A stretch of DNA of 64,000 nucleotides, from contig JAJECN010000057.1 in NCBI GenBank assembly GCA_022821965.1, forward strand, positions 62,001-126,000. Direction: 5' to 3'. This stretch comes from Candidatus Poribacteria bacterium. GTDB taxonomy: Bacteria; Poribacteria; WGA-4E; WGA-3G. The position numbers and the translations under genes are program-made. Positions 16,406 through 25,693 of the stretch are shown piece by piece (positions within the stretch are counted from its first letter, which is position 1; each line of letters begins with the position of its first letter). Under the pieces are notes generated by a model that saw only the letters and a program-made list of their open reading frames with translations, was not told the origin of the DNA and ran no database searches.

Positions 16406-16552
16406 AAAGGTTAGATAACCCGTCGTTCTTTTTCGTTCACCCCAGCCTGTATAGGTATCCTTCATATTGAACTTATGATTTGAATTTATACGTTATAGAA
16501 ATATCACTATTTTTTACTCATATTATTAAACGCGAAATTCAGGAATATGCTC

Positions 16553-17944
16553 ATGCGGCACACCCCTAACGAAGTTTGGCTGGAAATATTAGAGAAGCTC
16601 AGCGATACAGCACGACAGGATGTCTACCTTCACCAAGCAGTGCCCCTTTCAATTACAACGGAGGCATTGAACATAGCTGTCCCTTCTGCTTACACGCGTG
16701 CGCGAATTGAAGAACGATTCCGCGCCGATATCCAACGGGTGTTAGCAACACTTATCGGTGCACAGTGTGCCCTAATTCTCACTGTAGATGAATCCACGTC
16801 CGAGGACAGCACCGATCTTGAAGAAACTCAGCACGAGGAAAGTCTTAACCAATTACACGATTCAGAAAAGACATCAGATAGAGATGAACCCGCGTCATTG
16901 ACACAAAGTGAGACAGGGTTGAATCCTAACTATCGATTTGATAGGTTTATTGTCGGTTCAAGCAACATGATTTGTCACGCCACAGCCTTGGCTGTTTCTG
17001 AAAATCCTGGACGCGACTATAACCCGCTCTTTATCTATGGTGGTGTCGGATTGGGAAAAACCCATCTGTTACATGCAATTGGCAATCGGCTTTTAGCGAA
17101 CCAACCTGATAAGAAGGTACTTTACGTCACATCAGAAACCTTCATGAATGAATATGTTGAGTCCATTGTCAATCGAGGATCGGCACAAGGATTCCGGACA
17201 AAATACCGAACAGCAGATATGCTCTTGATTGATGACATACAGTTCTTACAACGTAAGGAGGGAACACAAGAGGAATTTTTCAATACATTTAATGCCCTCC
17301 ACATGAACTCAAACCAAATCGTCATGAGCAGTGATCGGACACCAGATAACCTCGAAAATCTCGAAGAACGCCTCCAATCCCGGTTCCAGTCAGGTATGGT
17401 AGCCGAAATTAGCATGCCACAATACGAAATACGGATCGCTATCTTGCGCCAAAAATGCCGAGATCAAGGGTGGGGTGGTGTCCCCGATGAAGTACTCAGT
17501 TACATCGCTGAGGTCGTCACAACCAACATCCGAGAATTAGAAGGCACTCTTTTGCGGCTAATCGCCCAAGCTACAATACTCAAAGAAGATTTGACCTTAG
17601 AATTCGCACGGCAGGTCCTGAACGATGTCGGTACCCCCTCGCCGATTCGACTCCGAAAAACTGCTACATCCAGAGGCATACAAACAGCCGTAGCTGATCA
17701 TTTTGGAATTGAAATAGAGGACCTCGTGTCTCAGAAACGGACAAGGGAATTGGCGAGAGCGCGTCAGATCGCTATGTACATGTGTAGAGAACTCACACAA
17801 ATGTCCTATTCAAATATTGCCCAAGTTTTTAATAGGGAAGATCATACCACTATCATGCATGCCTGCAGACAAATAGAAAAAACGATTGAGGAAAATGACG
17901 AGGAGCAACAAACGATTACCCTATTACTCAATCAATTCCGCTAA
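16553..17944 (+). CDS. dnaA: Chromosomal replication initiator protein DnaA
   Basis: DnaA with all four domains: domain I (about residues 1-80, 'EVWLEILEKLSD'), a short acidic linker II ('ESTSEDSTDLEETQHEE'), the AAA+ domain III with Walker A 'GGVGLGKTHLLHAIGN' (about 163-178) and Walker B 'LLIDDIQFL' (about 224), and domain IV with the DnaA signature 'EDHTTIMHACRQIEKT' that binds DnaA boxes. ATG at 16553 is chosen over 16547 because AGGA (16541-16544) is 8 nt from the former and only 2 nt from the latter. It is followed directly by a cluster of DnaA boxes. The length, about 463 aa, is normal. Confidence 0.97.
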   Translation: MRHTPNEVWLEILEKLSDTARQDVYLHQAVPLSITTEALNIAVPSAYTRARIEERFRADIQRVLATLIGAQCALILTVDESTSEDSTDLEETQHEESLNQLHDSEKTSDRDEPASLTQSETGLNPNYRFDRFIVGSSNMICHATALAVSENPGRDYNPLFIYGGVGLGKTHLLHAIGNRLLANQPDKKVLYVTSETFMNEYVESIVNRGSAQGFRTKYRTADMLLIDDIQFLQRKEGTQEEFFNTFNALHMNSNQIVMSSDRTPDNLENLEERLQSRFQSGMVAEISMPQYEIRIAILRQKCRDQGWGGVPDEVLSYIAEVVTTNIRELEGTLLRLIAQATILKEDLTLEFARQVLNDVGTPSPIRLRKTATSRGIQTAVADHFGIEIEDLVSQKRTRELARARQIAMYMCRELTQMSYSNIAQVFNREDHTTIMHACRQIEKTIEENDEEQQTITLLLNQFR

Positions 17945-18007: not shown

Positions 18008-18277
18008 TGTGGATAACCTGTGGATAACCTGTGGATAACTTTGTCATCCTTTGTGGATAGATTGTGGATAACTTGTGGATAGATCACAGAGTTTCTGCGT
18101 TTGTGGATAACCTGTGGATAAGTCAAAAAGTTATCCACAATTTATCCACAGGGTACTTGTCAATGGTGACAAGCGTTTAAGCGAGTTATCCACTTATCCA
18201 CACCCCCTACTACTGTTACTAATTTAACACTATAGTATATATATAGAAATTAGTACAAATATTAGGAGTGTGGATAA
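18008..18277. other. oriC: Chromosomal replication origin (oriC)
   Basis: At least 13 DnaA boxes (TTATCCACA or one-mismatch variants). Reverse-orientation boxes lie at 18008, 18019, 18030, 18052, 18063, 18074, 18102, 18113 and 18269. Forward boxes lie at 18131, 18142, 18186 and 18194. Many neighbours are exactly 11 bp apart, about one helical turn. The cluster ends in a C tract, trio-like repeats (18207-18221) and an AT-rich stretch at about 18222-18256 that can serve as the unwinding element. It sits between dnaA and recF. Confidence 0.93.
18207..18221. promoter_or_regulatory. DnaA-trio-like element
   Basis: CTACTACTGTTACTA directly follows two forward DnaA boxes (18186-18202) and a C-rich spacer (18203-18207), and is followed by the AT-rich stretch. 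This is the order of the basal unwinding system described in B. subtilis (boxes, GC spacer, trios on the strand loaded by DnaA). Confidence 0.7.
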
Positions 18278-18315: not shown

Positions 18316-19737
18316 ATGGCGAAGGAAATCTTTTACGTTTACAAACAAATGTTGTTAAGCCATATCATTCTACGCAATTTCCGTAACTATATTGATTGTG
18401 AAGTTAACTTTCCTAAGCCTGTCAATTTAATTATTGGCGGAAACGCGCAGGGCAAAACAAGTTTGCTTGAAGCAATCTATTTCCTTTGTACCGCGGAATC
18501 ACATCGTGCGACTCGCGATGGTGAACTGATTCGGCATAATGAAGCGGGATTCTATTTGAAAGGAACGTTAGAAAATAGTAATGACGATGTAATGTCTCTT
18601 GAAGCAACGAAGCGCGCACGCGGTGAGTTTAAACTGAAAAAGAACGGTGTGCTTCAAACAAAGCGTTCCGAATGGATCGGTCAGTTTAACGCTGTCCTCT
18701 TTTCGCCGGAATCGCTAATATTAGTGAAAGGGGGACCATCAGAGCGGCGAAGGTTTTTAGATCTGCTTATCTCACAGATTGACAACAACTACTTAAAAAA
18801 CTTACAGGAGTACAGACTCGTTCTCAAGCAGCGAAATGAACTATTGAAGCAAATTCGCATGGCGTTAGCGAATACAGTTCAATTAGATGTCTGGGACAAA
18901 CTTTTAATCGCACACGGTACTGCAATTATTGTAAAGAGATCAGAAATTTTTCACCAATTGAAAACCTACGCCACGCTAAATCACCAAAGACTCACTGAAG
19001 GGCAAGAAAATCTCGCATTGACATATCGCTCCGCACTGTTGCGGAGCGATATGTCAATAAGTAGTATAGCAAACGAACACAGCGCAGAGGATGAGAATTT
19101 GGGAAACTCAGTGGGCGAAGAAGGAGGTCAATTAAGAATCGAATCTATTGAATCTGCAAATGAAAGCAAGATAGCGAAACACTTTGACGAAGCACTGAGT
19201 GCCTCGCGCAGCGCAGATTTACAGAGAGGAACAACTTTAGTTGGACCACACCGCGACGATTTTCTGATTGAATTAGAGAACACATCTGAAATACACGATC
19301 CCAATTCTCAAAGTGAGAGCTGCTATGAGGTTAGAGACACTGAGGAAGGAGACGTGGTACATGAACCGTCCTTACCTACACCAACGCCTGAAGAAAACGG
19401 AACATTCCGAGAGGGAGCGCGGGCTTATGGGTCCCAAGGTCAACAACGGACGATAGCGTTGGCACTCAAATTAGCAGAGTTAGAACTAATCCGTGCCGTG
19501 ACCGGTAGGGACCCGATAGTGCTTTTAGACGATGTCACCTCAGAATTAGACTACAAACGGACCGAGTCGCTGTTAAACGTGCTGCAAAATCTGAGTGCAC
19601 AAACTTTCATCACTGCGACACATGCCGAACCTCTCGTCCATCATCTCAATCAACCAAACGTCTTAACAGTGGAGAATGCCCGGGTAAGCCGCACCCCTCA
19701 AGAATCCAAAAACCACGTTGAAGGCGTTGAAGACTAA
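18316..19737 (+). CDS. recF: DNA replication and repair protein RecF (with insert)
   Basis: RecF, an SMC-like ATPase that helps load RecA at gaps. Visible: 'ILRNFRNYIDCEVNF', Walker A 'IGGNAQGKTSLLEAIYFL', 'LFSPESLILVKGGPSERRRF', 'GPHRDDF', the signature 'YGSQGQQRTIALALKLAE', and Walker B 'PIVLLDDVTSELD'. It is 473 aa against a usual 360-380. The extra length is acidic low-complexity sequence around residues 235-300 and 320-365. The first insert begins at a perfect 17-bp inverted repeat in the DNA (19018-19057). The family N-terminus fits ATG at 18349 (MLLSHIILRNF) better than 18316; neither has a clear Shine-Dalgarno. The usual upstream neighbour dnaN is absent. Confidence 0.93.
   Translation: MAKEIFYVYKQMLLSHIILRNFRNYIDCEVNFPKPVNLIIGGNAQGKTSLLEAIYFLCTAESHRATRDGELIRHNEAGFYLKGTLENSNDDVMSLEATKRARGEFKLKKNGVLQTKRSEWIGQFNAVLFSPESLILVKGGPSERRRFLDLLISQIDNNYLKNLQEYRLVLKQRNELLKQIRMALANTVQLDVWDKLLIAHGTAIIVKRSEIFHQLKTYATLNHQRLTEGQENLALTYRSALLRSDMSISSIANEHSAEDENLGNSVGEEGGQLRIESIESANESKIAKHFDEALSASRSADLQRGTTLVGPHRDDFLIELENTSEIHDPNSQSESCYEVRDTEEGDVVHEPSLPTPTPEENGTFREGARAYGSQGQQRTIALALKLAELELIRAVTGRDPIVLLDDVTSELDYKRTESLLNVLQNLSAQTFITATHAEPLVHHLNQPNVLTVENARVSRTPQESKNHVEGVED
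19018..19057. repeat. Perfect inverted repeat inside recF
   Basis: The left arm TTGACATATCGCTCCGC (19018-19034) and right arm GCGGAGCGATATGTCAA (19041-19057) are perfectly complementary, with a 6-nt loop ACTGTT. It is translated as 'LTYRSALLRSDMSIS' at the edge of the extra RecF segment. Confidence 0.85.
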
Positions 19738-19752
19738 AAATGAGTCAGAGTA

Positions 19753-20247
19753 ATGTCCAAAACCCAAAATCTACATCACCTTCTTAACGAACTCAATCGA
19801 AAACTTCATCTTGAACCCAAGATACTCGAACAAAAAGTCTTTGCACTTTGGCGGGAGCATCTTGGCGCGCCACTCGGTACAAAAACAGTTCCTGTATCGT
19901 TGTCAGACGGGACATTGAAGATTTACACAGAATATCCGCCATATCGAACAGAACTCCTGTTTCACAAACAGAAAATTTTGGACGACCTGAACGCGGAATT
20001 AGGACAATCAATCATCACAGAACTTCAAATAGAACTCCATCAAGTCCACGCCGCTCACGAGGCAAAAAGTGTCCCTTTAAAGAAAAAAGAGTCAAAGGCA
20101 AACTCAAGGAATTCCAAGACTATAAACCATCAGGTAAAACCCGAAAAACTGGAGAGAATAGAGCAATCACTCGCCACTGTAACAGACACAGAAGTAAAAA
20201 AATCTTTGCGACGCTTGTTCATGACACAAAGCAAGGATGACCCTTGA
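19753..20247 (+). CDS. DUF721/DciA-like protein
   Basis: A 164-aa protein with the DUF721 pattern in its first 100 residues: 'LEQKVFALWREHLGAPLGTK', then 'VPVSLSDGTLKIYTEYPPYR' and 'ELLFHKQKILDDLNAELG', followed by a Lys-rich C-terminal tail. DUF721 proteins include DciA, which loads the replicative helicase DnaB in bacteria without DnaC, and commonly sit between recF and gyrB. The position here, 15 bp after recF and before gyrB, supports that role. The function is inferred from family and neighbourhood. The stop codon overlaps the -35 of the gyrB promoter. Confidence 0.8.
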   Translation: MSKTQNLHHLLNELNRKLHLEPKILEQKVFALWREHLGAPLGTKTVPVSLSDGTLKIYTEYPPYRTELLFHKQKILDDLNAELGQSIITELQIELHQVHAAHEAKSVPLKKKESKANSRNSKTINHQVKPEKLERIEQSLATVTDTEVKKSLRRLFMTQSKDDP

Positions 20248-20272
20248 CAAAATAGTTGAAACATGTTATTCT
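20244..20272 (+). promoter_or_regulatory. Sigma70-type promoter for gyrB
   Basis: TTGACA (20244-20249), 17-bp spacer, TATTCT (20267-20272). The -35 overlaps the stop of the DciA-like gene. It gives gyrB a leader of about 245 nt to the ATG at 20523. Confidence 0.75.
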
Positions 20273-20402
20273 ATTTAAGGTGTTAAGGTACGTATAGCGG
20301 AACGATACGCGTCCTATTCCATTCATTGAAAACTACTCACCTATTTATAAGGAGGCACATAAGGAATCGCCTGACAATCCAGCGCGTAATTCGTCATTAT
20401 AG

Positions 20403-23033
<2,631 letters not shown>

Positions 23034-23086
23034 TTTTTTACCGATATAGAAAGGAGTAATTCACTTTAGATAATACAAAGAGCAAA

Positions 23087-25693
23087 ATGGAAAACATACA
23101 AGAACGCAACATAGAAAACGAACTGCAAACATCGTACCTCACCTATGCGATGAGCGTCAACACGAATCGCGCAATACCTGATGTCCGTGACGGTCTCAAG
23201 CCGAGTACTCGTCGAATCATTTACGCGATGGGAGAGATAAACCTCACTGCAAACCGGCCTTATGATAAATGTGCTGCTGTTGTTGGCGAAGTAATGAAAA
23301 ATTATCATCCACACGGTGATGGTCCTATTTACGGTACGCTTGTTGGTTTAGCGCAGTCGTTTAATATGCGTTATCCGCTGGTAGATCCACAAGGGAATTT
23401 TGGGAGTATTGACGACGACCCACCGGGGGCGATGCGCTACACGGAATGCCGTCTTGCTGTTATTGCAGGTGAGATGCTCACGGACATTGATAAGCAAGTC
23501 GTTGACTTCCAGCCCAACTACAAGGACTCTCTTGAAGAACCGACGGTTCTTCCTGGACTTTTACCCAACTTGCTTGTCAACGGTACCACGGGTATTGGTG
23601 TAGGTTACCTTACGCGCATACCGCCACACAACCTCAGTGAAGTTGTTGATGCACTCCTCTGCAAACTCACAGACCCCGATGCCGACGCGGACACACTCAT
23701 GGAACACATCGTTGGACCCGACTTTCCTACTGCTGGTGTTATTGTTGGCACCAATGGTATCAGGCAAATGTATACTACCGGTAGAGGAAGTATTACCATC
23801 CGAGCCAAAGCGGTCATAGAAAGAGTTTCCATTCGTGGGGCAGAACGGGAGCAGATAATCATAACAGAAATTCCATATCAGATAAAGAAGAATCAACTGT
23901 TGGAGCGGATGTATCAATTGGTTGTCAACAAAACCATTGATGGAATCCAGGATATCCGAGATGAATCAGACAGCGAGATCCGCATTGTTATCGTCCTCAA
24001 GCGCGGCGAGATTGCACAGGTTATCCTGAATCAGTTGTATAAACACACACAGATGCAGACAAACTTCAGCGCGAGTCTTCTCTGTCTTGTAGAAGGGCTT
24101 CCAAAGATTCTGACGCTTGAAGAGATCCTCGGGCACTACCTTGCACATCGGAGGGACGTGGTCCGGCGGCGTACACAATTTGAACTTGCACGTGCGGAAC
24201 GTAGAAATCACATCTTAGAAGGGTATCTCTTAGCACTGCAAAACCTTGAGGCAATCATAGAACTCGTTCAAACAGCAGAATCACCACAAACAGCAGAGCA
24301 GGAATTGCGAGACGCCTATCAACTGAGCGAAGATCAGGCAAGAGAAATTCTTACGATGACCCTTCGGCAGTTGACCGGACTTGAGCGGCAGCGCATCCAT
24401 GATGAATACACGGAGCTTCTTGATCGTATCGCGGAATTCCGGGCTATCCTTGCCAACGAGACATTGGTAACGGATATCATCCGAACAGAACTCGAAACTC
24501 TCAAAGAAAAATACGGGGACGAACGCTGCACCGAAATTACGAACGAAGTCAAGGAATTTGAAATCGAAGATCTCATTGCTGATGAAGAAATGGTGGTCAC
24601 GCTGTCCCACGCCGGTTATATTAAACGGTTACCGATGGACACTTACCGCAAACAGCACCGCGGCGGCGTTGGAATCAGAGGAGCTGCGGCAAAGGATGGT
24701 GATTTTTTAGAACATATTTTTGTTGCGACTGCCCATCAGAACATTCTGTTTTTCACAGATTGGGGCAAGTGTTACACACTAAAGGTCCACGAAATTGTAG
24801 AAGCCAGCCGTCAATCAGCCGGACGGGCAGTTGTCAACCTACTTCGCTTATCGCAGGACGAGAACATCACGGCTTACGTTCCGGTCTCTTCCAAAGCCAC
24901 TAATGAAAAAATTGAAGCGGCTGATGCTGACGAAGTCCCGATGGATGAGCTTGAGACATCTGATGCCGATGGAATAGCGGAAATAGACGATGTTGGCGAA
25001 GGTACGACGAATGAATTTGTTTTTATGGCGACACAGCAAGGGATTGTCAAGAAAACAAAACTGACCAGTTTTGAGAACACAATATCAAGTGGCATCATTG
25101 CTGTCAACCTTAATGATGGTGATAAACTCATTGGTGCACAAGTAACAAACGGGGATTCCGATGTCATCCTTGTCACCCACAAAGGTGTTGCTATTCGTTT
25201 CAGTGAAAAAGATGTTAGACCTCTCGGACGCAACACACGTGGCATGCGTGGGATAAAACTTGATGCTGATGACTTCGTCGCGCAAATGGTTATTGTTAAT
25301 GGCGAATCGGAGGGAGAGGAATCAGAGGACGTAGCTACTGCCAAAGAAGACGATACCTTGTTGATTGTTACAGAGAATGGGTATGGCAAGCGAACAGCTG
25401 TCTCCGCTTACCGTTCACAAAAACGCGGCGGAAAGGGTATCATTGCCATCGGGAAATCTAAGCGAAACGGTGCAGTCGTCGCTGCAAAGCGCGTCGCAGA
25501 TATTGATGAACTCGTGCTTATTAGTTCAAGTGGATATGTCACCCGAACCGCAGTCGGCGACATTCGGCGTATCGGACGAAACACACAAGGCGTACGGATT
25601 ATGGCACTTCAAGCAGACGAGACGCTTGTTGATGCAGCCAAAATTGAACTTTCATCCACTCTTCTTGACGAAGAATTAAACTTCCAAGAATAG
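23087..25693 (+). CDS. gyrA: DNA gyrase subunit A
   Basis: The breakage-reunion subunit of gyrase, 868 aa. It has the N-terminal 'AMSVNTNRAIPDVRDGLKP', the quinolone-resistance region 'NYHPHGDGPIYGTLVGLAQ', the catalytic tyrosine in 'AMRYTECRLAVIA', a C-terminal beta-pinwheel with repeated blades, and a GyrA-box variant 'QKRGGKG' in place of QRRGGKG. Two acidic insertions interrupt the pinwheel (about residues 605-640 and 735-760). The start has AAAGGAG upstream at some distance. It forms an operon with gyrB. Confidence 0.96.
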   Translation: MENIQERNIENELQTSYLTYAMSVNTNRAIPDVRDGLKPSTRRIIYAMGEINLTANRPYDKCAAVVGEVMKNYHPHGDGPIYGTLVGLAQSFNMRYPLVDPQGNFGSIDDDPPGAMRYTECRLAVIAGEMLTDIDKQVVDFQPNYKDSLEEPTVLPGLLPNLLVNGTTGIGVGYLTRIPPHNLSEVVDALLCKLTDPDADADTLMEHIVGPDFPTAGVIVGTNGIRQMYTTGRGSITIRAKAVIERVSIRGAEREQIIITEIPYQIKKNQLLERMYQLVVNKTIDGIQDIRDESDSEIRIVIVLKRGEIAQVILNQLYKHTQMQTNFSASLLCLVEGLPKILTLEEILGHYLAHRRDVVRRRTQFELARAERRNHILEGYLLALQNLEAIIELVQTAESPQTAEQELRDAYQLSEDQAREILTMTLRQLTGLERQRIHDEYTELLDRIAEFRAILANETLVTDIIRTELETLKEKYGDERCTEITNEVKEFEIEDLIADEEMVVTLSHAGYIKRLPMDTYRKQHRGGVGIRGAAAKDGDFLEHIFVATAHQNILFFTDWGKCYTLKVHEIVEASRQSAGRAVVNLLRLSQDENITAYVPVSSKATNEKIEAADADEVPMDELETSDADGIAEIDDVGEGTTNEFVFMATQQGIVKKTKLTSFENTISSGIIAVNLNDGDKLIGAQVTNGDSDVILVTHKGVAIRFSEKDVRPLGRNTRGMRGIKLDADDFVAQMVIVNGESEGEESEDVATAKEDDTLLIVTENGYGKRTAVSAYRSQKRGGKGIIAIGKSKRNGAVVAAKRVADIDELVLISSSGYVTRTAVGDIRRIGRNTQGVRIMALQADETLVDAAKIELSSTLLDEELNFQE

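Follow-up and report, generated by a model that had tools for sequence, protein, structure and literature searches.

The segment at positions 18008-18277 of the window, the whole 64-kb stretch of DNA analysed here, is supported as the chromosomal replication origin (oriC) of a Poribacteria genome, as a cluster of DnaA boxes lies there beside replication genes. Genome comparison shows that, across the phylum, the sequence of the array boxes changes together with the recognition helix of DnaA. A putative second box-plus-trio module, seen as a conserved sequence pattern, faces the first across a shared AT-rich core. As a whole, the segment is probably best explained as an oriC with phased arrays, opening at DnaA-trios, co-changing boxes and recognition helix, and a mirror module.

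This origin type is already known, and what would be new is that a mirror module is present and that the box code is rewritten within one phylum. In the open-licence papers searched, we found no earlier report for Poribacteria of concerted DnaA-box evolution, of origins, of TTATCAACA, TTATGCACA or TTATTATCA boxes, or of two-sided or opposite-strand trios.

Locus and features

The window belongs to a Poribacteria genome of 5.69 Mb in 62 contigs (G000), and the closest named relatives of its DnaA are Candidatus Poribacteria. Poribacteria are known above all from sponges. The genes and the origin elements are as follows.

16547-17944, + strand: dnaA, 465 aa, with the AAA+ domain and the domain IV helix-turn-helix (Pfam Bac_DnaA, 2.7e-67; Bac_DnaA_C, 2.6e-29)
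17840-17863, + strand: codons for D-H-T-T-I-M-H-A of the DnaA recognition helix (E. coli D433-A440, by alignment to E. coli 1J1V), with D433 at 17840-17842
18008-18082, - strand: left array of six reverse boxes in two blocks (18008, 18019, 18030 and 18052, 18063, 18074), with 11-bp steps inside each block
18102-18121, - strand: reverse box pair, 11 bp apart, from the box search
18131-18150, + strand: forward box pair, 11 bp apart, facing the reverse pair, from the box search
18186-18202, + strand: tandem boxes TTATCCAC and TTATCCACA of the basal unwinding system (BUS), overlapping by 1 bp (8-bp step), a layout shared by most Poribacteria origins
18203-18206, + strand: C-tract spacer, 4 bp
18207-18221, + strand: DnaA-trios CTA CTA CTG TTA CTA, kept in relatives
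18222-18250, no strand: AT-rich core between the forward and mirror trio runs
18251-18265, - strand: mirror trios CTA ATA TTT GTA CTA
18266-18268, - strand: mirror spacer, 3 bp
18269-18277, - strand: mirror BUS box TTATCCACA
18316-19737, + strand: recF, 3' of the box array
19753-20247, + strand: dciA, after recF
20430-23033, + strand: gyrB, after dciA
23087-25693, + strand: gyrA, after gyrB

Reading of the window's genes finds no dnaN between dnaA and recF. After the origin, recF, dciA, gyrB and gyrA run in this order on the same strand (18316-25693). A dciA gene follows recF, and the helicase loader here need not resemble that of B. subtilis.

Two observations concern dnaA genes elsewhere. 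Five order-level relatives (G023, G020, G016, G014 and G021; L257-L261) carry a second DnaA-like protein of 386-439 aa with about 37-39% identity and with SRTT, SRAT or SHHTT in the helix instead of DHTT; this shorter protein was not found in the window's family. In another genome the dnaA match is split into residues 1-225 and 241-465 (G061:C162:33167-34511), probably by a frameshift or an assembly error.

The phased box array

Between dnaA and recF there are thirteen boxes that differ from TTATCCACA at one position or at none, and ten of them are exact. They start at 18008, 18019, 18030, 18052, 18063, 18074, 18102, 18113 and 18269 on the - strand and at 18131, 18142, 18186 and 18194 on the + strand. 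The first-pass annotation had claimed this same number of boxes, and its count is confirmed.

It is the only array of this kind in the genome. The 64-kb window holds 29 TTATCCACA-like matches (at most one mismatch) versus 14.4 ± 3.3 expected, a number reached by none of 100 shuffles, and the surplus is the cluster itself. Exact TTATCCACA occurs 79 times genome-wide, and the reversed pattern that served as control occurs 67 times; ten of the 79 fall in the segment. Moreover, the 11-bp double box (at most two mismatches) occurs six times in the whole genome, every time within 18008-18277.

Of the 12 steps between neighbouring boxes, six measure exactly 11 bp and one measures 22 bp. The others are 28, 18, 44, 8 and 75 bp, and therefore the 11-bp phasing is valid inside the blocks rather than over the whole array. 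Among the Poribacteria arrays, 11 bp is the most frequent same-strand neighbour step (242/387). The claim of unusual phasing is upheld only in part: close-set boxes are known in E. coli and H. pylori, and here the phased boxes are mostly of perfect consensus.

The forward unwinding module and the origin assignment

Forward boxes, a C tract, trios and an AT-rich stretch follow one another in the order of B. subtilis, as had been annotated. Some details of that annotation are amended: two of the forward boxes overlap, the C tract occupies 18203-18206, and the box that comes last, at 18269, has reverse orientation. The tandem boxes (18186-18202) lie within 16 bp of the trios, which begin at 18207, and 18207-18221 holds at least three trios of the form 3'-NAN-5' (5'-NTN-3' on the other strand). 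A BUS-type element 3' of dnaA is kept in nearly all the relatives read.

The reading as a chromosomal origin is upheld by the position between dnaA and recF, the unique array, the B. subtilis-like order and the conserved BUS-type element. We take the site as oriC because of its position, anatomy and conservation, and the GC skew adds modest support. The skew is weak across Poribacteria, and it was sampled in the complete relatives G081 and G080.

Among 60 sampled places in G081, the best-fitting origin is the bin adjoining dnaA, with the best-fitting terminus on the opposite side. There dnaA is the best of 60 rotations, with a directed permutation p of 0.005 when origin and terminus are fixed beforehand; the free best two-segment split is not significant, since 80 of 200 shuffles do as well. 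For G080 the directed test gives p = 0.04, and among the rotations the bin with dnaA comes third. For the switch in skew that the first-pass annotation had proposed as a check, these relatives give weak support at dnaA, in the directed form only.

Mechanistically, DnaA would fill the phased high-affinity arrays. From the tandem boxes by the C tract it would then assemble along the trios and, judging from the anatomy, open the AT-rich core in the manner known from B. subtilis.

Comparison with known origins

The B. subtilis BUS (DnaA-boxes #6/#7 and trios; PMC6669920, PMC8287927) shares with the window the tandem boxes, GC spacer, AT-rich stretch, strand order and trio consensus 3'-GAT-5'. The first box stands 12 bp from the trios in the window, inside the reported peak of 10-13 bp (PMC6669920, PMC8287927). 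Unlike in B. subtilis, the tandem boxes of the window overlap by 1 bp, a mirror module lies opposite, and the origin is between dnaA and recF without dnaN. In B. subtilis the trios are described on one strand with the DnaD element opposite (PMC10201434).

The arrays of E. coli oriC resemble those of the window in having two oppositely oriented sets with boxes 2-4 bp apart, but in E. coli many array sites have low affinity (PMC5742627), whereas the window boxes are mostly exact consensus. H. pylori oriC likewise has 2-bp-spaced boxes, trios and boxes departing from TTATCCACA, although it is bipartite, unlike the window origin (PMC8235120).

Lineage-dependent box sequences, as in Poribacteria, are known from cyanobacteria, with the box TTTTCCACA (PMC4674748), and from Thermotoga, with a 12-bp motif and non-conserved contact residues (PMC7561715). 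Unlike in those lineages, several switches occur here within one phylum, down to 91% DnaA identity, with the layout and trios retained. D433 is highly conserved across bacterial classes (PMC8235120), but in Poribacteria D433 itself varies.

The putative mirror module

On the reverse strand, 3 bp separate the box at 18277-18269 from the mirror trios, which enter the same AT-rich core as the forward module. We scored the mirror trios with a weight matrix built solely from forward trios, excluding four genomes without a match to the trio pattern. Those of the window are themselves degenerate, a point against the module. They score p = 0.001 against dinucleotide shuffles, and most near relatives have a reverse-strand trio run at p <= 0.01.

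Of 34 near genomes from the three nearest genera, 28 carry a box with at most one mismatch ahead of the mirror trios, always at a gap of 3 or 4 bp. In the 17 distinct box-anchored mirror 15-mers the middle base is T in 64 of 68 triplets and the first base is free to vary, the pattern expected if these are degenerate trios. The mirror trios are near-perfect in G048, whose module reads TTATCCACA ACCT CTACTATTACTACTA, and in G028; trio runs are found also in the distant G012 and G006.

The mirror element may instead be a recF promoter or an autoregulatory DnaA box next to an AT-rich palindrome, an explanation that we regard as possible if somewhat doubtful. It lies directly upstream of recF, and 6 of the 34 near genomes, as well as most of the genus g4, lack its box or have it in degraded form. 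An AT-rich palindrome can also yield trio-like runs by itself: runs at p < 0.05 occur in 25 of 64 genomes on the forward-strand control, versus 48 of 64 on the reverse strand. Against this explanation are the constant gap, like that of the forward module, the largely kept middle T with a variable first base, and the near-perfect or distant examples above. In addition, no mirror module was found in a small sample of four non-Poribacteria controls. If the mirror element is a second unwinding module, its trios could give DnaA access to the opposite strand and help to place a second helicase.

Box rewriting and the recognition helix

DnaA was matched in 72 of 85 Poribacteria genomes and the origins were read beside those dnaA genes, with residues in E. 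coli numbering via the alignment to 1J1V. Across the 72 genomes the layout and trios are constant while the box letters differ. The types TTATCCACA, TTATCAACA/TTATGCACA, TTATTATCA and TTATACACA track, in this order, D433, N433, N433 with R435/T438/Y439, and V433. D433, T435, L438 and H439 are listed among the box-contacting residues, and we took the residue-base contacts from the same sources (PMC7561715, PMC8235120).

At positions 5-7 of the array boxes, D433 genomes have CCA in 149 of 156. N433 genomes (278 boxes) have CAA in 161, GCA in 53 and CCA in 49; N433/R435 genomes (97 boxes) have TAT in 61 and TAA in 16; and the one V433 genome has ACA in 4 of 8. CC-majority arrays are found in all 20 scorable D433 genomes versus 4 of 42 non-D433 ones. 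The E. coli consensus reads TTWTNCACA (PMC7561715), so that a box altered only at position 5 still conforms to it, unlike boxes with C6 to A or A7 to T. In the V433 genome, the box pair upstream of dnaA is TTATCCACA/TTATCTACA (G021:C20:45692-45711) and the downstream array is mostly TTATACACA.

The window itself shows the classical pairing of D433, H434 and T435 (D-H-T-T) with TTATCCACA/TTWTNCACA. Neither the sister genome G081 (N433) nor the R435 members of g4 show this pairing, and both carry other boxes. G081 is the nearest switch: its DnaA, 91% identical, carries N433 and its array has eight TTATCAACA boxes, although its BUS and mirror boxes remain TTATCCACA.

N433 does not always come with altered boxes. 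The array of G077 is all TTATCCACA despite N433, and G057, G073 and G068 combine N433 with mostly TTATCCACA arrays; therefore N433 permits but does not force the box change. G077 looks like the state expected when the protein changes first. BUS box 1 retains CC in 21 of 28 N433 genomes, but only 49 of their 267 array boxes do so (p = 1.8e-9 by Fisher's test, uncorrected for relatedness).

Outside Poribacteria, 53 of 54 DnaA proteins have D433. The sole exception, L071 with N433, has TTATGCACA boxes versus TTATCCACA in its relative L059; this one genome may serve as a lead that agrees in direction with the link between N433 and the boxes.

Changes in the recognition helix, whose residues at 17840-17863 covary with the box sequence across relatives, would alter the box preference of DnaA. 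D433 would pair with TTATCCACA, D433N with TTATCAACA/TTATGCACA while tolerating CC, and N433 plus R435/T438/Y439 with TTATTATCA. Binding specificity would follow DnaA residues 433, 435, 438 and 439, as we infer from the aligned proteins and boxes.

Covariation and shared ancestry

We built the DnaA tree from domains I-III alone, leaving out domain IV. On it, three to four independent D/non-D contrasts are concordant and none is opposite, and three of three R/T contrasts are concordant. The independent events are too few for either set alone to reach p < 0.05.

Column scans over the whole protein point to the same residues. In the window's genus, 433 ranks first (tied with 442) in separating CC from non-CC arrays. 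In g4, only 403, 435, 438 and 439 separate the TTATTA-type from the other arrays without exception, and residue and box match in all 16 scored genomes. A single clade of the g4 R435 rows is rejected on domains I-III (AU p = 0.00014) and on RecF (p = 0.003), leaving three groups.

One alternative is that domain IV and the adjacent origin are exchanged between lineages as one recombining cassette, so that residue and boxes switch in one step. The domain IV coding region adjoins the array, and the g4 domain IV tree unites all the R435 rows with support of 96/91, against the rejections by domains I-III and RecF. This support falls to 46/0, however, when domain IV is analysed minus its contact residues, third-position identities shift only slightly, and G077, with N433 and all CC boxes, resembles a protein-first intermediate. 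With the R435 grouping lost in this way, both convergence and cassette exchange are conceivable; we consider the exchange rather unlikely.

It is improbable that this is an ordinary BUS-type oriC with neutral variants, its tandem 11-bp units homogenised by gene conversion or slippage and its residue match due to shared ancestry only: such units do homogenise readily, the independent contrasts are few and CC arrays occur in some N433 genomes, but the associated columns, drawn from the whole protein, land on known base-contacting residues, the R435 rows match their boxes throughout in spite of their three groups, distant boxes on either strand change alike, and in N433 genomes BUS box 1 keeps CC far more often than the array boxes.

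Implications

We tentatively propose a combined reading, in which DnaA, using the two mirror modules, would open the origin from either side and tag each strand for a helicase of its own. On this reading, too, the recognition code would have been rewritten several times, the protein first via the permissive D433N and the array boxes following. As a joint claim it is conceivable, though still open to doubt.

The placement and loading of two helicases on opposite strands at bacterial origins are described as unresolved (PMC10201434). A trio module on each strand would allow a direct test of the two-helicase placement. DnaA box recognition is commonly regarded as nearly fixed. Close relatives in which the recognition residues and some ten sites change jointly while the layout stays the same would offer a natural experiment on the ways in which the code linking an essential protein to its DNA sites can be altered while its function is preserved.
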